This document shows, one piece after another, positions 26,051 to 34,903 of a DNA stretch of 34,903 nt (the first letter of the stretch is position 1; each line of letters starts with the position of its first letter). The notes under the pieces were generated by a model. The model did not search any database and was not told the DNA's origin. It saw nothing but the letters and a program-made list of their open reading frames with translations. Origin of the DNA: a virus; IMG/VR virus record IMGVR_UViG_3300027759_000240, positions 1-34,903 of that record, one strand, 5' to 3'. Both the position numbers and the translations under genes were made by a program.

Positions 26051-26896
26051 ATGATATCCCATGAAGGTAAAAAATGGGTTGTAAAAGACTCTACTGGTAC
26101 GAAAGTGTTGGGAACTCATGGTTCCCAACAAGAAGCCCAAGCTCAACTTGCGGCTATTGAAATTTCAAAGAAAAAGAGAAAATCATTCAAGGAACATCTT
26201 GAAGAAGGAACTTCTCTAACATTAGCATATCATACTGAACTGAACCCACAGATCTGGGATGGTATGCAATTGAAAAAAGATATCAGAGCCAAACTTCTTG
26301 ATATCGGACAAACTTGGGTTGAATGGGTTGGACTTCCCCAGAGTGCTGTAAAAGATTATATTCTTGTTGGTGGTAATGCAAGTTATGCATATACATCATA
26401 TTCAGATATTGATCTTCATATTCTTGTTGATAAAAGAAAAATTGATAATTGCCCAAATTTAATAGATGACTATCTTAAAGATAAGAAACAACTTTGGTCA
26501 CTTACACATGACATAACCATTCTAGGACATGATGTTGAAGTATATGCTCAAGACATTAAAGAACCTGTACCACCTGACCAGGGGGCTTATAGTCTTAATA
26601 ACGACCAATGGATCACTGAGCCTAAGCATCAAGAGGTAAATTTGAATGATCCAAGCATTGAAAAGAAGGTCAATGAATATATTGAAAAAATTGATGACCT
26701 TATTGCTTCGACAGCCGAAGATGAATCTTTTGATAAATTAAAAGAAAAGATTCGAAATATGAGAAGTTCTGGACTCAAGAAGTCTGGAGAAGTGAGTATT
26801 GAGAATATGGTATTCAAGGAACTCCGAAACCGGGGTTATCTGGATAAAATGAATGCGTACATCAAATCAACACAGGATAAACGATTAAGTTTATAA
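26051..26896 (+). CDS. Nucleotidyltransferase with internal capsid-targeting-like segment
   Basis: 281 residues. An N-terminal mini-domain (about 1-40: KKWVVKDSTGTKVLGTHGS and QEAQAQLAAIEISK) is followed by KSFKEHLEE (44-52) and Gly, which matches the capsid-targeting segment of neighbouring proteins including the LxE cleavage pattern. The catalytic domain has the polymerase-beta-type motif LVGGNAS (105-111), YSDIDLHILVD (D119, D121) and a third acid in HDVEVY (D161/E163). It would transfer a nucleotide to a protein, RNA or small molecule. Cleavage after E52 would free the enzyme inside the head. Enzyme class is well supported; packaging is inference. Confidence 0.78.
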   Translation: MISHEGKKWVVKDSTGTKVLGTHGSQQEAQAQLAAIEISKKKRKSFKEHLEEGTSLTLAYHTELNPQIWDGMQLKKDIRAKLLDIGQTWVEWVGLPQSAVKDYILVGGNASYAYTSYSDIDLHILVDKRKIDNCPNLIDDYLKDKKQLWSLTHDITILGHDVEVYAQDIKEPVPPDQGAYSLNNDQWITEPKHQEVNLNDPSIEKKVNEYIEKIDDLIASTAEDESFDKLKEKIRNMRSSGLKKSGEVSIENMVFKELRNRGYLDKMNAYIKSTQDKRLSL

Positions 26897-27826: not shown

Positions 27827-27834
27827 AATAAATA
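27827..27834 (+). promoter_or_regulatory. Late promoter box AATAAATA
   Basis: Lies immediately after the terminator tail and 7 bases before the ATG at 27842. Confidence 0.6.
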
Positions 27835-27841
27835 ATATAGT

Positions 27842-28135
27842 ATGAAACGATTTAAAGAATTTCTAGAAGAATCTGCTGCATGGCAACGCAAAGAAGGCAA
27901 GAATCCCGAAGGTGGATTGAATGCCAAAGGTGTTGCTTCATATCGTAAAGAAAACCCAGGTTCTAAATTACAAACAGCAGTGACTACCAAACCATCTAAA
28001 CTCAAACCTGGATCAAAAGCAGCAAAAAGAAGAAAGTCGTTTTGTGCAAGAATGGGTGGAATGCCGGGACCGATGAAAGATGAAAAGGGTAGACCAACTA
28101 GAAAAGCACTATCTTTGAGAAAGTGGAATTGCTAA
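27842..28135 (+). CDS. DUF6321-like protein with capsid-targeting N-terminus
   Basis: 97 residues. MKRFKEFLEE (1-10) followed by Ser aligns with the T4 internal-protein targeting peptide MKTYQEFIAE without gaps, with LxE at 8-10 as the cleavage site. The rest (AWQRKEGKNPEGGLNAKGVA, later RRKSFCARMGGMPGPMKDEK and ALSLRKWNC) matches what I recall as DUF6321, a small basic domain of phages and giant viruses with unknown function. Its charge suits binding of DNA in the head. Its stop overlaps the next start (TAATG), so two tagged proteins are coupled. Confidence 0.78.
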   Translation: MKRFKEFLEESAAWQRKEGKNPEGGLNAKGVASYRKENPGSKLQTAVTTKPSKLKPGSKAAKRRKSFCARMGGMPGPMKDEKGRPTRKALSLRKWNC

Positions 28136-28623
28136 TGAAGAGTTTTAAACAATATTTACGTGAAGAAAATGATATCGTTCCATTTGCCTATAAAGATCAA
28201 CAACCAAATAAAACAGATCATCGTGATCATGTAATGGGTCAGTTCTTTTCTTTTATAAAAAAAAGAATACCACATTTAAAAGGTGTTGATACTGGTTTTT
28301 TAAAACATTTTCATAATCATTTGGATCTTATGTTGGGTGATGATCCAAAACATTTTACAGAATTACATAAAACACTTACAACAGATGATGATGGACAACC
28401 CCAAAGAGCTGATTTATTTGATGCTATGCAAGCATTAACAAGAAGAACAATGGCTTCGCATATAAACGAGTTAAAGAAAAAGAATCAGTATAATGACGAT
28501 ACAGATGATGCAGCAACTGAATCTAGAACTACACTACAGGATCATATTTTAGATATATCTAAATTGGCACTGAAAACACGTAAAAAAGGTGATGCAGAAT
28601 CTTTAGATGAGATTGGAATTTAA
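28135..28623 (+). CDS. Unknown protein with capsid-targeting N-terminus
   Basis: 162 residues. The start at 28135 is chosen over an in-frame ATG at 28123 because it restores MKSFKQYLRE (1-10), the tagged N-terminus, and overlaps the previous stop by one base. The body has His-rich helical segments (HRDHVMGQFFSFIKKRIPHL, then FLKHFHNHLDLMLGDD) and a charged C-terminus. No family is recognised. It is likely packaged in the head; its activity is unknown. It converges with the co-chaperonin gene with a 4-base overlap and no terminator between. Confidence 0.65.
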   Translation: MKSFKQYLREENDIVPFAYKDQQPNKTDHRDHVMGQFFSFIKKRIPHLKGVDTGFLKHFHNHLDLMLGDDPKHFTELHKTLTTDDDGQPQRADLFDAMQALTRRTMASHINELKKKNQYNDDTDDAATESRTTLQDHILDISKLALKTRKKGDAESLDEIGI

Positions 28624-28877
28624 TTAGTTGCTTGAACCCAATCTTGATGTACTAAATGGTTTCCACCATAGCCACCCTTGAGTTGTGAGACATCCCAAAG
28701 AATCTCATCACCAACCTTGATATCTTCGGTTAACTTATCACCGATAGCCAGTACAGTACTCCAAATGAACTTAGACTTAGAACGCTCTTGGTAGATGATA
28801 CCAAACTCGTTGGTCTTCTCTCCACCAAAAGTAGTCTTGACCCAAATGTATTTGCCGATAGGTTTAAACTTTGCCAT
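28620..28877 (-). CDS. GroES/gp31-like co-chaperonin
   Basis: 85 residues, near the usual 90-110 of Cpn10 proteins. KPIGKYIWVKT, the mobile-loop region EKTNEFGIIYQ (about 20-30), STVLAIGDKLTEDIKVGDEI and the closing HLVHQDWVQA follow the GroES beta-barrel pattern, as in the co-chaperonins of T4-like phages. It would cap host GroEL to fold large phage proteins; T4 gp31 does so for the capsid protein. It is the last gene of the minus-strand operon that starts at 31913. No GroEL is encoded in the window. Confidence 0.75.
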   Translation of the reverse strand: MAKFKPIGKYIWVKTTFGGEKTNEFGIIYQERSKSKFIWSTVLAIGDKLTEDIKVGDEILWDVSQLKGGYGGNHLVHQDWVQATN

Positions 28878-28887
28878 ATATATTTTC

Positions 28888-29331
28888 TCAAAATCTGAAC
28901 GGTGCTTCCTTCATAGTTATACCCTTCATACGAATACGTTCATCTTCGCATAAAGTAATAACCTGTCTTCCTACAGAACATTGTGTACCAGGTTTACCTG
29001 TTACCTGACATACACTATATGATCTATTTTCATATTCATTGATTATATCCGTAGCCTTGCCCCATAGATCAGCATCTTCGGTGAGAAAACTACAATAGAA
29101 TCGAAGACCACCAAACTTTTCTTTAATTTGGTCAATTGTAATACCAACCATGTTGTCTTCTTCATTGAGTGGATAATTGGCATATGACTCAACAAGTAGA
29201 GGAGTCAGTTTAGAACATAGTTCATCAACAAGAGTCATCCACCCATCAGGTAGATCGGAGTGTGATGATTCTGACATATAAGCGAACACAAGTGGATGCT
29301 TCTCTGCAAGTTTTTTAATATTATTACTCAT
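28888..29331 (-). CDS. Unknown protein with KEKFGGLRFY motif
   Basis: 147 residues from MSNNIKKLAEKHPLVF. The start at 29331 is chosen because it has AAAGG upstream and overlaps the preceding stop by 8 bases (ATGAGTAA). Longer starts would run through the upstream gene. IDQIKEKFGGLRFYCSFLTE is the hallmark of a family frequent in phages and bacteria whose function is not known. It is followed by a degenerate Cys pattern (SVCQVTGKPGTQCSVGRQVI, then TLCEDE) that in relatives looks like a zinc site. Confidence 0.6.
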   Translation of the reverse strand: MSNNIKKLAEKHPLVFAYMSESSHSDLPDGWMTLVDELCSKLTPLLVESYANYPLNEEDNMVGITIDQIKEKFGGLRFYCSFLTEDADLWGKATDIINEYENRSYSVCQVTGKPGTQCSVGRQVITLCEDERIRMKGITMKEAPFRF

Positions 29332-29512
29332 CGCTGCCTTTACCCCAACCTGTTCCATGTTTGTAGGCGTTAATGATGTCGTCTGTATACTTACCCGATG
29401 CTTTGAGTACTCGAATTTCTTCAGCAGCATCACGACAAATATCATAAACCTCTTGGTTTACTGTGCGCCATTTGTCAGCCATATTTCGCAGTCTTGTTTC
29501 TATATCATTCAT
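29324..29512 (-). CDS. Small helical protein after tRNA-Glu
   Basis: 62 residues from MNDIETRLRNMADKWRTV. The start at 29512 is two bases after the tRNA-Glu 3' end; a longer frame would overlap the tRNA. Helical and charged (YDICRDAAEEIRVLKASGKY), ending GWGKGSDE. It resembles the C-terminal half of the protein from 29605 and the protein from 30131 in style (AAEEIRVLK, ASERIQFLT, AYAEISRLERK), suggesting a shared helical motif. No family is recognised. Confidence 0.5.
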   Translation of the reverse strand: MNDIETRLRNMADKWRTVNQEVYDICRDAAEEIRVLKASGKYTDDIINAYKHGTGWGKGSDE

Positions 29513-29514
29513 AG

Positions 29515-29589
29515 TGATCCTAATGGGATTTGAACCCATGTACTGAGATTGAAAGTCTCAGGTCCTAAACCAGGCTAGACGATAGGACC
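29515..29589 (-). tRNA. tRNA-Glu (TTC)
   Basis: On the minus strand GGTCCTA pairs with TAGGATC (one G-T pair) as the acceptor stem. Anticodon arm TGAGA-CTTTCAA-TCTCA with anticodon TTC. The T arm has GGTTCAAATCC. Discriminator A; no CCA encoded. It lies inside the minus-strand early operon between two protein genes, so it is cut out of a longer transcript. Confidence 0.92.
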
Positions 29590-29604
29590 GCAAATTATTT
29601 ATAT

Positions 29605-30138
29605 TCATTCTCTCGGAGGACATTCACTTACGTGCATAGCCTCTTTGGCGAGATACAACTGATTTCGTTCTTCTCTCTCTACATCCTTGGCAAGGAATGT
29701 CATTCTTGTTTCATAGAAATCTCGTTCCTTGGTAAGAAACTGAATTCGTTCTGATGCTTCACGCAACAGATCACGCACTACCTTGTGAGCAAAGTCAGAG
29801 TGTTCCTCAAGACGAGCCACAAGAGTTGATGCATCAGCAATAGGCGCATTATCATTTGTCATTGTCATATCAATCTTTTCCTTACAAAACTTTTTCATAA
29901 AATCACACTTACAATGCTCAAACTCAACATCTTCTACATGAATGAGAAGACCATCCCAACTATAACACCAATGCCACCCATTGTCAACTTCTTTTGCAGT
30001 AAGCATGACACTCTCATCGCCTTCAAATGGCTGCATGAGATATTCCCAGCGTTCTTCAGTCATTCCGTGTCTTACATTGGCTTTGTGAGCCGGAATACGA
30101 TCACCGTGATCATTGTCTCCTACGAATATATCACTCAT
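29605..30138 (-). CDS. Hypothetical early protein, two-part
   Basis: 177 residues. The first half has a compact pattern with Trp and Cys residues (NGWHWCYSWDGLLIHVED, then EFEHCKCDFMKKFC). The second half is a helical, coiled-coil-like region (LVARLEEHSDFAHKVVRDLL, ASERIQFLTKERDFYETRMT). The join may be a fusion of two small phage proteins. A clear AGGAG ribosome site lies upstream, and the start overlaps the preceding stop by 8 bases. No family is recognised. Confidence 0.55.
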   Translation of the reverse strand: MSDIFVGDNDHGDRIPAHKANVRHGMTEERWEYLMQPFEGDESVMLTAKEVDNGWHWCYSWDGLLIHVEDVEFEHCKCDFMKKFCKEKIDMTMTNDNAPIADASTLVARLEEHSDFAHKVVRDLLREASERIQFLTKERDFYETRMTFLAKDVEREERNQLYLAKEAMHVSECPPRE

Positions 30139-30331
30139 CGGTATTCTCCTGTGCTAACTTTTGAAAAAGATTGTTGTGTTCAGTAACAATAGTTTGGTAA
30201 CTATTAGCCACCTTTAGTTTTCTTTCCAACCGAGAGATTTCTGCATAGGCTTCCGATAGAGTCTGAATGACATCCTCGGGAAGATCAGTTCTCTTAGATT
30301 CATAACGAAGATGTAGTGCAATATCTTTCAT
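30131..30331 (-). CDS. Small helical early protein
   Basis: 66 residues, helical with likely coiled coil (EAYAEISRLERKLKVANSYQ). An AAGGA ribosome site lies close upstream. It overlaps the phosphoesterase gene by 4 bases and the next gene by 8 bases (ATGAGTGA). No family is recognised. Confidence 0.55.
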   Translation of the reverse strand: MKDIALHLRYESKRTDLPEDVIQTLSEAYAEISRLERKLKVANSYQTIVTEHNNLFQKLAQENTDE

Positions 30332-30876
30332 AGGACTTCCTTGTGAAGTGCAGTCACACGGTTTCGAATCTCATCGATACTTATAGGAGTATACCCTATT
30401 CTCTCCACACAGCAAGAGAAATATCTCAGATCTGTCACACCTTCTGAAAGCATAACTTCTTCAGCATGAAGGTGTGCATGAATATTTAACCAAGAAGTAT
30501 TTCTCTTGGTTCTCCACAGAGACATGGGGTGAAGAGGAATGTGTGAAAGAATTTCATTGTCTAACTTGTGATACGCACGAACATCTCTAAAGTACTTCGC
30601 ATACTTTGAGAGTTCGAGAGTATCATGGTTGCCCTTAATTAAAACTTTTGACCCATTAAGGGCTTCAAGAATTTTTAAATCTTTTGGGTTGAATGCAACA
30701 TCACCCATGACATACACCTTGTCACCCTTGGAAACAGTCCGATTCCAATTCTCTCTGATAACAGTATCACCTTCTTCGGCTGATGCATATGGACGAACCT
30801 TCTCGCCATTTGCACGAGTGAAGCGATACATCGCTTCGTGTCCGAAGTGTGGGCAACCAATGAAGTATGTACTCAT
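30328..30876 (-). CDS. Calcineurin-like metallophosphoesterase
   Basis: 182 residues with the ordered motifs of the family: GCPHFGH (H10, H13), GDVAFNP (D59), KGNHD (N83, H84), SHIPLHP (H112) and NIHAHLH (H133, H135). These residues bind two metals for phosphoester hydrolysis. The first motif is normally DxH; here the Asp position is Cys (C8), which I recall also in other phage members. The substrate may be a nucleotide, RNA end or nucleic acid. An AAGGA ribosome site is present, and its start overlaps the stop of the small membrane protein (ATGA). Confidence 0.82.
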   Translation of the reverse strand: MSTYFIGCPHFGHEAMYRFTRANGEKVRPYASAEEGDTVIRENWNRTVSKGDKVYVMGDVAFNPKDLKILEALNGSKVLIKGNHDTLELSKYAKYFRDVRAYHKLDNEILSHIPLHPMSLWRTKRNTSWLNIHAHLHAEEVMLSEGVTDLRYFSCCVERIGYTPISIDEIRNRVTALHKEVL

Positions 30877-30995
30877 GCGTTTCCTTGAAAGGCGCGAATA
30901 GCAATAGACAAAACAATGGCAACGACAATAGACAGTAATGCAAGCCCAATCACAAGTGCAGCCATGACAGAAATAAAATGTACAAAATCAGTCAT
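30873..30995 (-). CDS. Small single-span membrane protein
   Basis: 40 residues. MTDFVHFISVM is followed by a long hydrophobic stretch (AALVIGLALLSIVVAIVLSI, 12-31) and a short basic tail with Arg. It has AGGA five bases before the ATG and overlaps both neighbours (TAATG with the upstream gene, ATGA with the phosphoesterase). It could act at the inner membrane. Holin-like function is possible but not shown. Confidence 0.6.
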   Translation of the reverse strand: MTDFVHFISVMAALVIGLALLSIVVAIVLSIAIRAFQGNA

Positions 30996-31228
30996 TAGAA
31001 TCCTAATTTATCATCTTGAATTATTTGTTCAACTTGATCGTCAACAATAGAAAAAAGATTCATCGCTCGGTCTGCAAAACCAACACGAACTTCTCGACTG
31101 AGTGATATTTCTTCTTCTGTTTCAGGATTGTCAATAGCATCTACGTAACGATCAAGTATACCATCTAATAACTGATGAAGATCACATATATGAGATTTAT
31201 TAAATGGTATATTATAAATTTTTTCCAT
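30995..31228 (-). CDS. Hypothetical acidic early protein
   Basis: 77 residues from the ATG at 31228 (MEKIYNIPFNKSHICDLHQL); a TTG at 31243 is possible but overlaps the upstream gene. Acidic and helical (LDRYVDAIDNPETEEEISLS, FADRAMNLFSIVDDQVEQII). GGAAAG lies upstream. No family is recognised. It lies between the two small membrane proteins in the early operon. Confidence 0.55.
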   Translation of the reverse strand: MEKIYNIPFNKSHICDLHQLLDGILDRYVDAIDNPETEEEISLSREVRVGFADRAMNLFSIVDDQVEQIIQDDKLGF

Positions 31229-31232
31229 TATC

Positions 31233-31421
31233 TTACTTTCCAACAGTAATGGTAATCTTCTGACAGAGTTGCATACTCATGAGAAACAATGTACTGGCAG
31301 CAAACGTGAGCATGGCTAAAATAGCCAAGTCAAGCAGTACAGAGAATGCACCCGGTGGGGGCATTAGAGAAAGAATGTAACGCTTAGGGGCAGGCTTTGT
31401 GATTTTCTTTTTAGTAGTCAA
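31233..31421 (-). CDS. Small membrane protein with TTG start
   Basis: 62 residues. I choose a TTG start at 31421 because a strong AGAAGGA site (AAGGA at 31428-31432) lies 6 bases before it and the overlap with the upstream gene becomes 11 bases, in keeping with the operon; an ATG at 31454 has no ribosome site. A basic N-terminus (TTKKKITKPAPKRY) precedes a hydrophobic span (FSVLLDLAILAMLTFAASTL), giving an N-in single-span or hairpin membrane protein. The function is unknown. Confidence 0.55.
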   Translation of the reverse strand: MTTKKKITKPAPKRYILSLMPPPGAFSVLLDLAILAMLTFAASTLFLMSMQLCQKITITVGK

Positions 31422-31674
31422 TTTTATTCCTTCTGATTTTTTGAATTCTTCCATAACGACGACGAGCACAGGCAACGATTTTCTTGTACTCTAGAGCAGT
31501 ACATTCAAAGCCAAGATCAAAACTATTCTTACCCATCATCATACCCGAACCCATAAATTGCTTTGGGTAACGATTCTCTAATCCTCGAGAAATTTGAAAA
31601 TAATTTCCACGATTGTAGACGAATGAGTAGTAATACTTCTTGGCTTTAATCTTTTTAAGTGTTTTAGTAATCAT
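31411..31674 (-). CDS. Hypothetical basic early protein
   Basis: 87 residues from the ATG at 31674 (MITKTLKKIKAKKYYYSF); an upstream TTG would overlap the previous gene. Basic and Tyr-rich with NRGNYFQISRGLENRYPKQF and a C-terminal ARRRYGRIQKIRRNKIDY. The charge suggests nucleic-acid binding. No family is recognised. Confidence 0.55.
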   Translation of the reverse strand: MITKTLKKIKAKKYYYSFVYNRGNYFQISRGLENRYPKQFMGSGMMMGKNSFDLGFECTALEYKKIVACARRRYGRIQKIRRNKIDY

Positions 31675-31676
31675 TT

Positions 31677-31913
31677 TTAGTTCCAATTCTTGTTGATAAG
31701 AGTATAGTGTCCGTCATTACGAATGAACTTAAGAATATCATCGGCAAACTTCTTGTTACCATCAAAAAGAATGGTAAAGGAATCTTCAAGCCTAATGTAG
31801 TTGTATTCAAACTCAGGATTCACCTTATACATCCATTCAATGAACATGTATTCATTGCCGCTAAAGGTGGCATGGTTACTCCCAATCTTTGATGTCTTGA
31901 TTGTCGTGTTCAT
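31677..31913 (-). CDS. Hypothetical first gene of the early operon
   Basis: 78 residues: MNTTIKTSKIGSNHATFSGN, EYMFIEWMYKVNPEFEYNYI, a strand DSFTILFDGN and a helical C-terminus. No family is recognised. A TTGACA/TATCAT promoter ends 6 bases before the ATG, so it should be translated from a leaderless message, while most later genes of the operon have Shine-Dalgarno sites. Confidence 0.55.
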   Translation of the reverse strand: MNTTIKTSKIGSNHATFSGNEYMFIEWMYKVNPEFEYNYIRLEDSFTILFDGNKKFADDILKFIRNDGHYTLINKNWN

Positions 31914-31919
31914 ACCAAT

Positions 31920-31947
31920 ATGATACCGTATCTATAGTGAATGTCAA
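31920..31947 (-). promoter_or_regulatory. Sigma70-like early promoter, minus strand
   Basis: Minus-strand TTGACA (31947-31942), 16-base spacer, TATCAT (31925-31920), 6 bases before the ATG at 31913. The -35 overlaps the TGA stop of the PEP-CTERM-like gene. It drives the operon down to the co-chaperonin. Confidence 0.7.
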
Positions 31948-32435
31948 ACAACTCGTTTACGTTTTAATGAAATAAGTGTAGCCATTCCTAACATCAACCC
32001 CATGCCCGGAGAAGGAACGGGCGTAGGTGTAGCACCACCTGATTCTGTCATTTGCAATGCACCCATTGAGATACTCTCGATTCGATCATACATGATTGGA
32101 ATAGCAAACTGCTGATCAACCATTTGAATGGTTTTGACCAACACTCCACCATTGTAAATTTTATAGATCCATAGACCATCAGCCGTTCCCATGAACAAAT
32201 TTGATGAAAAACTTGTAACGGCAACCGTAGGAGGCTCAATGGCTTCAGCCCAAGGTTCCATCATGGTATACGCAGAATCAAACGTAAGTCTGTTCGTATA
32301 TGAAACTTCCACATACATGGAACCCTGATATACAGAATCATGAAACATCTGACCAGCAGAGTAGAGTCTAGAAATCATAGAGTTAGTATACACCAAGATC
32401 ACCAACAGTAAAGTATTACTCTGTAGGTTCTTCAT
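31944..32435 (-). CDS. Secreted protein with PEP-CTERM-like sorting tail
   Basis: 163 residues from the ATG at 32435 (alternatives at 32453 and 32468). The N-terminus MKNLQSNTLLLVILVYTNSM looks like a signal peptide. The body is beta-rich (YVEVSYTNRLTFDSAYTMME, TSFSSNLFMGTADGLWIYKI). The C-terminus has PVPSPG (139-144), a hydrophobic span (MGLMLGMATLISL) and KRKR, the three-part layout of PEP-CTERM signals processed by exosortase, with PSP in place of PEP. It overlaps the endonuclease VII-like gene by 20 bases. Such surface proteins are bacterial; in a phage it may alter the host envelope. The start is uncertain. Confidence 0.6.
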   Translation of the reverse strand: MKNLQSNTLLLVILVYTNSMISRLYSAGQMFHDSVYQGSMYVEVSYTNRLTFDSAYTMMEPWAEAIEPPTVAVTSFSSNLFMGTADGLWIYKIYNGGVLVKTIQMVDQQFAIPIMYDRIESISMGALQMTESGGATPTPVPSPGMGLMLGMATLISLKRKRVV

Positions 32436-32874
32436 CAAACAAAGAAGTGCCATAAATTCTAGAAGCACTTTTTTTCAAATATTCGACCGCTCTCATTAGA
32501 GACTCAATGGTATCTCCCAATCTTCCCAAACCTAGATTGCACTTTGCACATATCCAACCACGAAACTTTCCAGTCTCATAGTCATGGTCTAATACCAATG
32601 GAGAATCTGAAACTTTGCCACAACATTCACAGGCTTGTGGTCTTGGGGGAGCGGTCTTATGAAGATTTTTAGTAATTTTATTAATTCGGTAATTACAGAT
32701 TTTGCATTTTAAAGAATGACCATCACGATCTTTATAAAAATCTTGCAATGGTTTTCTAGTGTGGCACTTGCTGCATACTCTGTATATTACATTTGGGTTT
32801 TGGGTATCATTATCATCAAATGGCAAAGCAACAGTCGGGCTTTGTTTATTTGTATAGTAATATGGATTTGGCAT
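32416..32874 (-). CDS. Endonuclease VII-like HNH nuclease
   Basis: 152 residues. CSKCHTRKPLQDFYKDRDGH with C34/C37 and C57/C60 forms an N-terminal zinc finger. CECCGK (C82/C85), LVLDHDYETGKFRGWICAKC (D96, H97, D98; C109/C112) and NLGLGRLGDTIESLMRAVEY match the recombination endonuclease VII family (T4 gp49), which cuts branched DNA. The start at 32874 is chosen because the sigma70-like -10 ends 6 bases before it; a GTG at 32892 lies inside the promoter. Together with the RuvC-like enzyme it gives the phage two different junction nucleases. Confidence 0.82.
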   Translation of the reverse strand: MPNPYYYTNKQSPTVALPFDDNDTQNPNVIYRVCSKCHTRKPLQDFYKDRDGHSLKCKICNYRINKITKNLHKTAPPRPQACECCGKVSDSPLVLDHDYETGKFRGWICAKCNLGLGRLGDTIESLMRAVEYLKKSASRIYGTSLFDEEPTE

Positions 32875-32880
32875 TAATGG

Positions 32881-32908
32881 AGTATAACACACTCAAGATG
32901 TGTGTCAA
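32881..32908 (-). promoter_or_regulatory. Sigma70-like early promoter, minus strand
   Basis: Minus-strand TTGACA (32908-32903), 16-base spacer, TATACT (32886-32881), 6 bases before the ATG at 32874. Same geometry as at 13886 and 31920. Confidence 0.8.
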
Positions 32909-32911
32909 TTA

Positions 32912-32954
32912 AATCAATAAATATTATACCATGAAGAAATTTAAAGAATTTTTA
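32912..32954 (+). repeat. 43-bp promoter-plus-start cassette, copy 1
   Basis: Identical over 43 bp to 33860-33902. It spans the late box, the ATG and the first eight codons (MKKFKEFL), then diverges sharply. The 23-bp coding part recurs exactly at 34412 and 34816. Confidence 0.92.
32916..32923 (+). promoter_or_regulatory. Late promoter box AATAAATA
   Basis: Ends 7 bases before the ATG at 32931 and lies 7 bases from the -35 of the divergent early promoter. Confidence 0.65.
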
Positions 32955-33335
32955 GCAGAATCAAATGATCTCTACGAAGAGAAAGATGCCTGTTACAAAC
33001 AAGCCATGAACTCATATGGTAAGTGGTCAGCAAGAGCAGCCCAAGCAACCGCCAAATGCCGCAAAGGCAAGGGTGATGTCAAGAAGTCAAAAGAGGGAGC
33101 CAATCTGAAACGCTGGGAGGCAGAAGATTGGAAAGATACCAAGACTGGCAAAGATTGTGGTGCAGGTGGTAAGAATGAGTATTGCAGACCCAGCAAGAGA
33201 GTCAGTAAGAAAACCCCAAAGACATCATCAGAGATGTCATCAAAGGAACTCAAGAGTAAGAAGGCAGAGAAGTCACGAGTAGGTATGCATGGGGCATCAG
33301 GAAATAAGGTTTCCTCTACCAAGAGAAATACATAA
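32931..33335 (+). CDS. DUF5872-like protein with capsid-targeting N-terminus
   Basis: 134 residues. MKKFKEFLAE (1-10) followed by Ser matches the T4 targeting peptide MKTYQEFIAE, with LAE as cleavage site. The remainder is very basic with Cys motifs: ACYKQAMNSYGKWSARAAQA, KCRKGKG, then WKDTKTGKDCGAGGKNEYCR and PSKRVSKKTPKT. This agrees with what I recall as DUF5872, found in phages and giant viruses, function unknown. The body is clearly richer in G+C than its neighbours, which hints at separate origin of the cargo part. Likely packaged with DNA. Confidence 0.75.
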   Translation: MKKFKEFLAESNDLYEEKDACYKQAMNSYGKWSARAAQATAKCRKGKGDVKKSKEGANLKRWEAEDWKDTKTGKDCGAGGKNEYCRPSKRVSKKTPKTSSEMSSKELKSKKAEKSRVGMHGASGNKVSSTKRNT

Positions 33336-33339
33336 AATT

Positions 33340-33825
33340 TTAATTAAATTTAATAGTCTTACATTCCCACCAAAAGTGAACTATTGAACTACTTCCGTCA
33401 AAGATAAGTGGACAATGAGTAGGCTTAAACCGAGACTCACTTGAACAGGCAAGACAGACAAAAATTATATTTTCTGACGAATACCCATAATTTAATAATT
33501 TTTGTTGTACACGAGTGAAGTTACCCCCACTCAAACAACCGCTATCCAATACGATTAACTTGTCGTAGGGATCAAGTTGATTCGGGTGAATAAACACCTC
33601 AAACTCATTTTTATATGGAATATTGACAGGTTCAATAGACATAGGCTCACCCTCAATACTGAGACGGTGAGAGAGTATCTGAGCAAATAACCCACTATAC
33701 TCATAACTGAGTTGTAGAATAGCAATCTTAGAAGTATTCAACCATAATGAATCTCGAATAGACGAGGCAACATTATCAATTAACTTCAATTCCCATGCCG
33801 AATCAATATAAAGTGAATTCATCAT
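33340..33825 (-). CDS. Phosphoribosyltransferase-fold-like protein
   Basis: 161 residues from MMNSLYID. DKLIVLDSGCLSGGNFTRVQ (about 88-107) has the shape of a PRPP-binding loop (strand, D94-S95-G96, then SGG), followed by a helix and a strand NIIFVCLACSS as in type I phosphoribosyltransferases. The early part (IAILQLSYEYSGLFAQILSH) fits the fold's first strand and helix. Residues for a specific base were not recognised. A sigma70-like promoter ends 4 bases before the first ATG of the ATGATG pair. A nucleotide-salvage or regulatory role is possible; confidence is moderate. Confidence 0.55.
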   Translation of the reverse strand: MMNSLYIDSAWELKLIDNVASSIRDSLWLNTSKIAILQLSYEYSGLFAQILSHRLSIEGEPMSIEPVNIPYKNEFEVFIHPNQLDPYDKLIVLDSGCLSGGNFTRVQQKLLNYGYSSENIIFVCLACSSESRFKPTHCPLIFDGSSSIVHFWWECKTIKFN

Positions 33826-33829
33826 AGTA

Positions 33830-33857
33830 ATTATAGAATATAGTACCAAGAAGTCAA
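33830..33857 (-). promoter_or_regulatory. Sigma70-like early promoter, minus strand
   Basis: Minus-strand TTGACT (33857-33852), 16-base spacer, TATAAT (33835-33830), 4 or 7 bases before the ATGATG start at 33825/33822. Confidence 0.8.
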
Positions 33858-33859
33858 AC

Positions 33860-33902
33860 AATCAATAAATATTATACCATGAAGAAATTTAAAGAATTTT
33901 TA
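33860..33902 (+). repeat. 43-bp promoter-plus-start cassette, copy 2
   Basis: Identical to 32912-32954 over the late box, spacer, ATG and eight codons. It precedes the methyltransferase gene. Confidence 0.92.
33864..33871 (+). promoter_or_regulatory. Late promoter box AATAAATA
   Basis: Ends 7 bases before the ATG at 33879; lies 6 bases from the -35 of the divergent early promoter. Confidence 0.65.
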
Positions 33903-34415
33903 TTAGAAGACCAGAATATTACTTCTGCGGCAACTTCAAGACCTCAAGTAGCCCAAGCCTTCAAAACAGTAGAGAAACTTCATGGTTGGCAAAAAGGTAC
34001 TACTCATATTGACATTGGTGGTGGTAAACATGATATGGGAACAGACTTCTTGGGAGATCGTCAGGTACGTGCTTATGTTTATGATCCATACAATCGACCA
34101 GCCGACCACAATGAAAGAGTATTACAAACAGCCGGATCAGGGCAGGCAGATACCGCATCACTCTTCAATGTACTGAATGTCATACAGGATGAGACAGATC
34201 ATCATACAGTACTTCAACAAGCCCACGATGCCCTGAAACCGGGTGGAAGAGTCTATGTTGATGTTTATGAAGGAGATAGGTCAGGAGCAGGAAAGCAGAC
34301 TGGAAAAGACTCATGGCAACGAAATCAAAGATTAAGAGATTATTTAAAGACAGTACAAGTAACATTTCCTGATGCAAAATTGGAAAAGGGAATTATACAT
34401 GGAACAAAACAATGA
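33879..34415 (+). CDS. SAM-dependent methyltransferase with capsid-targeting N-terminus
   Basis: 178 residues. MKKFKEFLLE (1-10) is the tagged N-terminus with LLE as cleavage site. The rest is a class I methyltransferase fold: HIDIGGGKHDMG (motif I, D45 and G47-G49), YVYDPYNRP (acidic D69 at the end of strand 2), ADTASLFNVLNVIQDE (motif IV region) and ALKPGGRVYVDVYEG (119-131). The C-terminal substrate part is short. The substrate is unknown; DNA, protein or a small molecule are possible. If packaged, it would act in the host right after injection. It overlaps the next gene by ATGA. Confidence 0.8.
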   Translation: MKKFKEFLLEDQNITSAATSRPQVAQAFKTVEKLHGWQKGTTHIDIGGGKHDMGTDFLGDRQVRAYVYDPYNRPADHNERVLQTAGSGQADTASLFNVLNVIQDETDHHTVLQQAHDALKPGGRVYVDVYEGDRSGAGKQTGKDSWQRNQRLRDYLKTVQVTFPDAKLEKGIIHGTKQ

Positions 34416-34819
34416 AGAAATTTAAAGAATTTTTGTTAGAAGTAGAAGATTGGAAAGATCAAGTAGCCACCAATGATGAGACTGGTAAGAGATACCGAGT
34501 CAAGGATATCTACGATTTTGCCAAATCAAAGAAAGAATTTTTAATAAAAGATTTGCCCATTAAAGATACAGACGCATTAAAATGGTGGGATAAGCAATAC
34601 GATATGGATAACAAAGATCATGTTGAAAGAATGAAACAGGCTGATACTGGTGTACCTGTATTGGGAATAAGACAAGAGGATGGTACAATTTCAATATCAG
34701 ATGGGCTAAACAGAATCAAGAAGGCATTTACAATAGAAAAGAAGAAGACCATACCAGCATATGTGATAGACAAGAAGGATATGGATAATATACCTTCAAT
34801 AAAAGATGATACAAAATGA
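34412..34819 (+). CDS. ParB/sulfiredoxin-fold-like protein with capsid-targeting N-terminus
   Basis: 135 residues. MKKFKEFLLE (1-10) is the tagged N-terminus. VPVLGIRQEDGTISISDGLN (81-100), R101 and TIPAYVID (113-120) follow the ParB N-terminal/sulfiredoxin pattern (strand, DGxxR, then a strand IPxxVI), a fold that binds or hydrolyses nucleotides. The segment 11-75 is charged and unrecognised. It overlaps the genes on both sides by ATGA, so at least three tagged proteins are translated from one message. The fold call is moderate; the activity is unknown. Confidence 0.65.
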   Translation: MKKFKEFLLEVEDWKDQVATNDETGKRYRVKDIYDFAKSKKEFLIKDLPIKDTDALKWWDKQYDMDNKDHVERMKQADTGVPVLGIRQEDGTISISDGLNRIKKAFTIEKKKTIPAYVIDKKDMDNIPSIKDDTK

Positions 34820-34903
34820 AGAAATTTAAAGAATTTTTAAAAGAAGAGTATGAGGTTTACCTTGATATGCCTCATACAAAGAAGTATAAAGCAAATGTAA
34901 TCA
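34816..34903 (+). CDS. Further capsid-targeted protein, 3' end missing
   Basis: 29 residues visible before the right edge: MKKFKEFLKE (1-10) followed by Glu, then EYEVYLDMPHTKKYKANVI. The first 23 bases are identical to the starts at 32931, 33879 and 34412. The start overlaps the preceding stop (ATGA). The cargo domain lies mostly outside the window and cannot be named. Confidence 0.75.
   Translation, partial: MKKFKEFLKEEYEVYLDMPHTKKYKANVI

Follow-up and report, generated by a model that had tools for sequence, protein, structure and literature searches.

A shared ten-residue leader on unrelated proteins of an uncultured virus resembles the capsid targeting sequence of phage T4

Why should unrelated proteins of one virus begin with nearly the same ten residues? 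The question is raised by the 3' end of the 34,903-nucleotide stretch of viral DNA analysed here (IMG/VR record IMGVR_UViG_3300027759_000240; referred to as the window), where an initial annotation had noticed six near-identical starts followed by unrelated bodies, and had proposed that the proteins are packed in the head, trimmed and injected with the DNA. All six starts were located on the + strand, and comparison with metagenomic relatives, T4 and cultured cyanophages indicates that the shared leader (or tag) is very probably a T4-type capsid targeting sequence, marking cargo that would be packaged in the head, trimmed by the gp21 protease and probably injected. The six genes are the following.

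27842..28135, + strand: gene 1, leader MKRFKEFLEE and DUF6321 body; 97 amino acids, mature isoelectric point (pI) 10.9, Pfam DUF6321 E=1e-24
28135..28623, + strand: gene 2, leader MKSFKQYLRE and unknown body; 162 amino acids, no Pfam family above cut-off
32931..33335, + strand: gene 3, leader MKKFKEFLAE and DUF5872 body; 134 amino acids, mature pI 9.9, Pfam E=3.8e-12
33879..34415, + strand: gene 4, leader MKKFKEFLLE and S-adenosylmethionine (SAM) methyltransferase body; 178 amino acids, Methyltransf_23 E=6.5e-11
34412..34819, + strand: gene 5, leader MKKFKEFLLE and ParB/sulfiredoxin-like fold; 135 amino acids, no Pfam family
34816..34903, + strand: gene 6, leader MKKFKEFLKE; incomplete, with 29 residues up to the contig end

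In the T4 leader, targeting depends on residues 4 and 7 and processing on residues 8 and 10, and gp21 cuts after [L/I]xE (PMC9026906; here and below, statements from cited articles refer to the parts of their text available to us). The window leaders share the form M-x-x-F-x-x-[FY]-L-x-E, so that all six fit the targeting positions, and residues 8 to 10 (in gene order LEE, LRE, LAE, LLE, LLE and LKE) read LxE in 6/6. They align without gaps to the T4 leader MKTYQEFIAE, with 3 to 6 of the ten positions identical, and on both of these points the initial annotation was correct.

The tagged genes form two groups (27842-28623 and 32931-34903), interrupted by minus-strand open reading frames (ORFs) at 28620-32892 and 33340-33861. 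Their five complete bodies fell into different BLASTP clusters (E<=1e-4) and are all small when mature (9.5-18.7 kDa), with a mature pI of 6.0 to 10.9 and two of the five basic. The labels given to them earlier (DUF6321, unknown, DUF5872 and methyltransferase) agreed with the Pfam matches, or with the lack of one for the protein starting at 28135; throughout, Pfam matches below cut-off (DUF4972, NTP_transf_2, DUF2188 and similar) were given no weight. For gene 2 the ATG at 28135 was taken as the start and an upstream GTG was passed over, and the window protein and its three homologues all begin MKxFKQYLxE; its body was helical in a low-confidence model (mean predicted local distance difference test score, pLDDT, 64), too uncertain for a fold search. 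Gene 5 had been called ParB-fold-like. Its alignment against PDB sequences gave one weak match only (E 0.43), while its AlphaFold model was confident (mean pLDDT 82) and lay nearest to sulfiredoxin and ParB chains in Foldseek (best E 3e-3; none <=1e-3), a resemblance that upholds the label at a modest E value. Residues 1-12 of the model had no confident structure, which would suit a removable leader. Gene 6 is likely to be a real gene, since its word VYLDMPHTKK recurs in a tagged protein of the relative L015. A megablast search of window positions 10000-34903 (24.9 kb) against 50,697 phage records gave no match.

A degenerate pattern drawn up from the six leaders themselves matched exactly six forward sites in the window and no reverse site, and the backwards-pattern control matched none. 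With a looser core pattern, which includes five of the six starts, we obtained 10 matches; 100 shuffles averaged 0.44 and never exceeded 3. For the next test a profile was made from 35 distinct ten-residue leaders, all taken from the window or its metagenomic relatives; T4 and every other cultured phage were kept out of it. Applied to the 268 gene calls of T4, it placed gene 61.1 first, followed by ipIII and ipII (tied) and then ipI. The internal proteins (IPs) IPI-III are the textbook capsid-targeted proteins of T4. At a score of >=10, a threshold chosen after the T4 scores were known, 18/3,761 start windows and 24/323,841 internal windows passed in seven held-out T4-like genomes (odds ratio 65), as compared with 1/1,990 start windows and 9/187,085 internal windows in S-TIM5, N4, SPO1, T5 and phiKZ. 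A chance origin of the shared starts was rejected on the shuffles, the reverse and backwards controls and the start-window enrichment.

Three individual matches are recorded in their own right. T4 gene 61.1 (AF158101, 18966-19130, - strand) encodes 54 amino acids starting MKTFKEFIKE and is a possible unrecognised capsid-targeted protein. An internal match, LLEFKQFLYEAS (score 20.1), lies at about residue 512 of the T4 protein encoded from 112677 (+ strand), far from any start. The single tag-like start of S-TIM5, MKIYSNFLLE (JQ245707, 53153, - strand), belongs to a cyanomyovirus in which gp21 (PF03420) and the gp23-type capsid (PF07068) gave no matches.

Codon variation pointed to a constrained peptide. 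Among 47 distinct leaders of the window's clade, residue 9 was the most variable (13 amino acids, 92% of pairs non-synonymous), and at residue 8 synonymous change (43%) exceeded non-synonymous change (30%); as residues 4, 7, 8 and 10 were constrained by the search pattern, the independent evidence lies in the freedom at residues 3, 6 and 9 and in the codon variation.

Proteins carrying such a leader are found in purified cyanophages. For S-CREM2, 52 virion proteins among 219 ORFs have been reported (PMC10665884). The strict motif, placed within residues 2-20, occurs in 3/219 of these ORFs, encoding a SAM hydrolase, an APH-like kinase and a cytidylyltransferase, and all three are virion proteins, an association which in this one phage gave P=0.0027 after exclusion of 24 named structural proteins and P=0.013 over all ORFs. 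In residues 21-77 the motifs numbered 0 or 1 per stretch and had no significant link to virion presence. The cytidylyltransferase of S-SZBM1 (PMC9146016) and the NMNAT of S-SCSM1 (PMC9602691) are likewise tagged and were detected in virions. Over the three cyanophages together, 5/7 tagged proteins were virion-detected (P=0.003 by base rates), the status of S-SCSM1 proteins being that of the 'virion protein' labels in its record and the base rate for that phage being 45 detected proteins for 293 annotated features. S-CRM01 has a run of neighbouring genes in which g127, g129 and g130 are clearly tagged, and g128 and g131 show a weak likeness only; g130 is annotated as a serine/threonine kinase (Pkinase E 4e-6, below cut-off) and is presumably the kinase reported in S-CRM01 virions (Dreher et al. 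2011, as cited in PMC10665884). A term search of the available text of PMC10665884 and PMC9602691 returned no mention of a targeting sequence. We also observed that the Cas9/Csn1-like virion nuclease of S-CREM2 (ORF12; OR473000, 7704-10313, - strand) carries LRFASFMAE at about residues 17-25, outside the strict motif.

The arsenal had been described as customisable, and this was borne out by bodies that carry the tag in some genomes and lack it in others. Eight untagged homologues of the DUF5872 protein were looked at out of 20 loci (L031-L050). In the window the leader is followed by a KDACY-like word, and it is at this word, or a few residues from it, that seven of the eight begin. The DUF6321 protein of S-CREM1 begins with MKTYNDFITE, 7/10 identical with the T4 leader, and continues VAAWQRKEG; that of the podovirus HTVC168P is untagged and starts at about the domain, and its gene has the scaffold gene on one side and the capsid gene on the other. 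In viral contigs DUF6321 is met very often (at least 596 stretches confirmed). Among the best 80 of at least 596 metagenomic loci (L263-L342), 15 had a tag-like start (profile score >=8), 30 were standalone and untagged, 33 were fused with no tag in view and two were left open.

The tag on DUF6321 accompanied T4-like replication genes. A gp41, gp43 or gp61 like that of S-CREM2 was present on 8/9 tagged versus 0/7 untagged contigs (P=0.0007), in a comparison where the tagged sample comprised 9 of the 15 loci (11 of the 15 lie on contigs >19.6 kb, of which L329 and L334 were left out), the untagged sample comprised 7 of the 30, hand-picked among the longer contigs (L280, L310, L311 and L316, all >50 kb, were left out), one tagged and three untagged contigs were covered only in part, and the 33 fused loci with no tag in view, among them L269, T4-like by its gp21 and gp23, were excluded. 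Three of the nine tagged proteins (L283, L294 and L312) have, on our reading, no [LIF]xE at residues 8-10; without them the counts became 5/6 and 0/7 (P=0.0047). On the ninth tagged contig, G059, five further matches to S-CREM2 were seen, none of them to gp41, gp43 or gp61, and the untagged contig G051 had one uvsX-like match. A T7-type connector (PF12236) gave no matches in 45 contigs, an uninformative result as no control matched.

In the fused proteins a cleavage-like site precedes the domain itself. [LIFMVY]xE stands 0 to 3 residues before DUF6321 in 29/38 of them, compared with 8.5% of positions elsewhere in the same proteins (726/8,522) and with 1/28 untagged standalone DUF6321 proteins; this residue class was picked after seeing the data, 8 of the 80 loci were dropped for want of an anchor, one was open to the locus edge, and the sequences counted are related rather than independent. 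Among the virion proteins of S-CREM2, ORF137 has a DUF6321-like stretch at its C-terminal end, with MNE in front of it. Judging from these sequences, the fused domain may be released by cleavage within the head.

The head genes that such a mechanism would use were found in relatives of the window. We sought gp21 in 30 records and found it in 12, including all three contigs >100 kb that share body homology with the window (G002, G007 and G013; E 2e-37 to 7e-40) and all three cultured phages (KVP40, S-CRM01 and Cr30). By the initial annotation's own account the lack of a gp21-type protease would refute it; all three of these large contigs encode one. A gp23-type capsid gene lies near the protease gene in the same three contigs (E 2e-135 to 4e-139), and in each of them an LxE at capsid residue 55 aligns with T4 LTE-65. 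Among the matches listed, the cultured capsids closest to that of G002 were about 53% identical and came from cyanophages and phage C48C1. G013 also gave a portal match; scaffold-like genes in relatives were named by position alone.

Several results pull the other way and have to be set against a head-targeting role. Only 3/17 body-homology contigs, and none of the 14 shorter ones, yielded gp21; it was found in 6/10 contigs collected by the leader pattern, and two of the misses, G021 and G025, exceed 100 kb. Neither gp21 nor gp23 was identified in the 34.9-kb window, in which no search with those two models was made, and the pair was found on only 1/45 DUF6321 contigs, so the protease is out of view for most fragments. 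T4-like capsids hold further LxE sites in the region of residue 55, and the LxE site alone is therefore weak evidence. Two relatives lack the glutamate at residue 10 (MRKFKEFLEN and MKNFKQFLEN). As for the virions, a looser motif in S-CREM2 gave 5/9 proteins detected (P=0.037 on all ORFs), 25/28 of its virion proteins other than the named structural ones lack the strict motif (ORF156 included), and the strongly tagged SSZBM1_191 and SSCSM1_30 were not reported in virions in the available accounts; the authors of the S-CREM2 study also allowed for contamination of CsCl preparations by enzymes (PMC10665884). With these points weighed, comparison of sequences still gives strong support to the packing and trimming put forward by the initial annotation, through the blind profile, the gp21 and gp23 genes of relatives and the virion proteomes, and we regard head targeting with trimming by gp21 as the well-supported part of the proposal. 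That the leader binds the core and is cut at residue 10 is what we infer beyond this, as is each function of the cargo, and injection with host takeover is suggested by analogy with T4.

The shared starts could also be read as DNA rather than as peptide, and the following elements bear on this.

27828..27834, + strand: ATAAATA late-type box, first base 14 nucleotides before the gene 1 ATG
32917..32923, + strand: ATAAATA late-type box, 14 nucleotides before the gene 3 ATG
33865..33871, + strand: ATAAATA late-type box, 14 nucleotides before the gene 4 ATG
32912..32960, + strand: 49-nucleotide box-plus-leader repeat, second copy at 33860-33908, 96% identical
26051..26896, + strand: nucleotidyltransferase-like protein with an internal tag-like RKSFKEHLEE from residue 43

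The boxes precede three of the six tagged starts (27842, 32931 and 33879), just as had been claimed for three transcripts, and genes 4-5 and 5-6 are joined by ATGA stop/start overlaps. More widely, ATAAATA stands exactly 12 or 14 nucleotides (first A to ATG) ahead of many genes of the clade, mostly without a Shine-Dalgarno sequence. Counting boxes no more than 60 nucleotides from an ATG, this spacing was observed in 4/8 cases in the window (26905, 27842, 32931 and 33879), 15/30 in G002, 10/22 in G007 and 5/14 in G013, and elsewhere in 0/28 in T4, 0/22 in KVP40 and 1/26 in S-CRM01. Given the spacing of T4 late promoters, late mRNAs of the clade would be leaderless or nearly so.

If the first 30 bases acted at the level of DNA or RNA, as a late promoter joined to the start region of leaderless or coupled genes and spread by recombination, with a peptide that has no role, then box-plus-leader copies up to 96% identical, the frequent spacing of 12 or 14 nucleotides and the ATGA overlaps would all follow. 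Such an element does not account for a residue-specific pattern in which residue 8 changes more synonymously than non-synonymously, for a protein profile that detects the T4 internal proteins, or for a tag that correlates with virion content. It also sits badly with copies that have no start codon of their own. In ORF 26051 the tag-like RKSFKEHLEE follows a weakly DUF2188-like stretch (both Pfam matches of this ORF are below cut-off), and the match to phrog_36119 (E 3e-79) begins at residue 44, which corresponds to profile position 5; an internal tag occupies the same place in G007 (101269, - strand), and G002 (14271, - strand) has a similar layout, with the same kind of N-terminus and FSNFLKE near residue 50. 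ORF156 of S-CREM2, a homologue of ORF 26051, is present in the virion proteome (PMC10665884). A mobile nucleic-acid element is thus a very improbable explanation, and a purely DNA-level one was rejected on the codon variation.

That the leader directs proteins to the virion and not to the head core, for instance as a docking helix for tail, neck or vertex, we consider very improbable. Detection in virions does leave a protein's place within the particle undefined, and SSCSM1_30 is encoded among virion-protein genes, after a tail fibre gene; the leader pattern, however, is that of the T4 internal head proteins, and cleavage at LxE is a feature of the maturing prohead. Recent tandem duplication, by which the genes would be diverged copies of a single gene, might be suggested by their clustering and near-identical starts, and its probability is close to nil, as the bodies come from different families and two of them have leaderless homologues.

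Packaged, gp21-trimmed cargo has a well-described precedent. Foreign proteins carrying the T4 leader are packaged, and the T4 IPs are described as basic (PMC9026906); they are injected into the host (PMC9026906, PMC12373910), where Ip1-3 each inhibit a distinct GmrSD, a type IV restriction enzyme, as reported in 2025 (PMC12373910). Like IPI-III, the window proteins combine a ten-residue leader, aromatic residues at positions 4 and 7 and [L/I]xE at 8-10 with unrelated bodies, and T4-type head genes are present in the window's relatives. Unlike them, the window holds at least five bodies in 7 kb plus a cut-off sixth, and its cargo, known from sequence alone, is partly enzyme-like and neutral or acidic. 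Since foreign proteins with the T4 leader are packaged, this non-basic cargo limits the likeness to the T4 IPs and not the mechanism. The virion enzymes of S-CREM2, S-SCSM1 and S-SZBM1, and probably the S-CRM01 kinase, bear the same kind of N-terminal leader; in contrast to the window proteins, the cyanophage enzymes (SAM hydrolase, APH-like kinase and cytidylyltransferase/NMNAT) were detected in virions by their authors. HTVC168P, a non-T4-like Pelagibacter podovirus, shares the DUF6321 body of gene 1 but without the leader.

The range of tagged bodies extends well beyond the window. A KVP40 homologue of gene 4, 23% identical, starts MKQFCNFLAE and received the highest profile score among the 392 gene calls of that phage, and S-CRM01 g185 is tagged and annotated as an acetyltransferase. 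Tagged proteins of relatives matched an AAA_33 P-loop (E 4e-6), DUF6267 (1e-89) and GP88 (2e-34). In the clade, 101 tagged reading frames gave 54 clusters, about 11 of which look spurious (antisense or deep-internal starts), leaving on our reading about 40 cargo families; a leader lying past residue 45 of a longer open frame would have escaped the search. Loading of varied proteins through the leader by T4-like phages has been proposed before (PMC9026906), and ip genes of T-even phages have been found through their leader (PMC12373910). Among the open-licence papers listed in our searches we recognised none that ties the leader to enzymes of cyanophage virions or to clades without cultured members. 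As far as those searches reach, four points are new: tagged enzyme cargo in several cyanophages, an array of tagged genes in an uncultured clade, the contrast of tag and no tag for a single body, and the LxE ahead of DUF6321 in fused proteins.

Late in infection, then, these proteins would be made with a removable ten-residue N-terminal address, which would bind the scaffold core of the prohead and so allow unrelated proteins to be built into the head. A gp21-type protease would cut after LxE at residue 10, and the mature cargo would stay with the DNA, probably entering the host with it as in T4 and taking effect immediately, for instance by countering defences or altering components of the host. 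By this analogy there may be counter-defence proteins among the window cargo; the ParB/sulfiredoxin-like fold and the methyltransferase fit such roles and prove none. We see even chances for a wider reading, in which a body-independent address across T4-like phages (coliphages, vibriophages, cyanophages and uncultured clades) marks a delivered repertoire of dozens of families, enzymes included, and DUF6321 is a second, internally cleaved head module.

Pairs of tagged and untagged proteins with one body (DUF6321, DUF5872) constitute a natural experiment for packaging. If the leader is a capsid targeting sequence, it would explain the SAM hydrolase, kinases and cytidylyltransferases in cyanophage virions, for which the choice between packaging and contamination has been left open (PMC10665884), and would allow candidate counter-defence proteins for the first strike to be listed in ranked order. 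A ten-residue rule would then predict, from sequence, which proteins are carried inside T4-like heads, and if the wider reading of address plus DUF6321 module also holds, the proteins that any T4-like phage injects could be predicted from N-termini.

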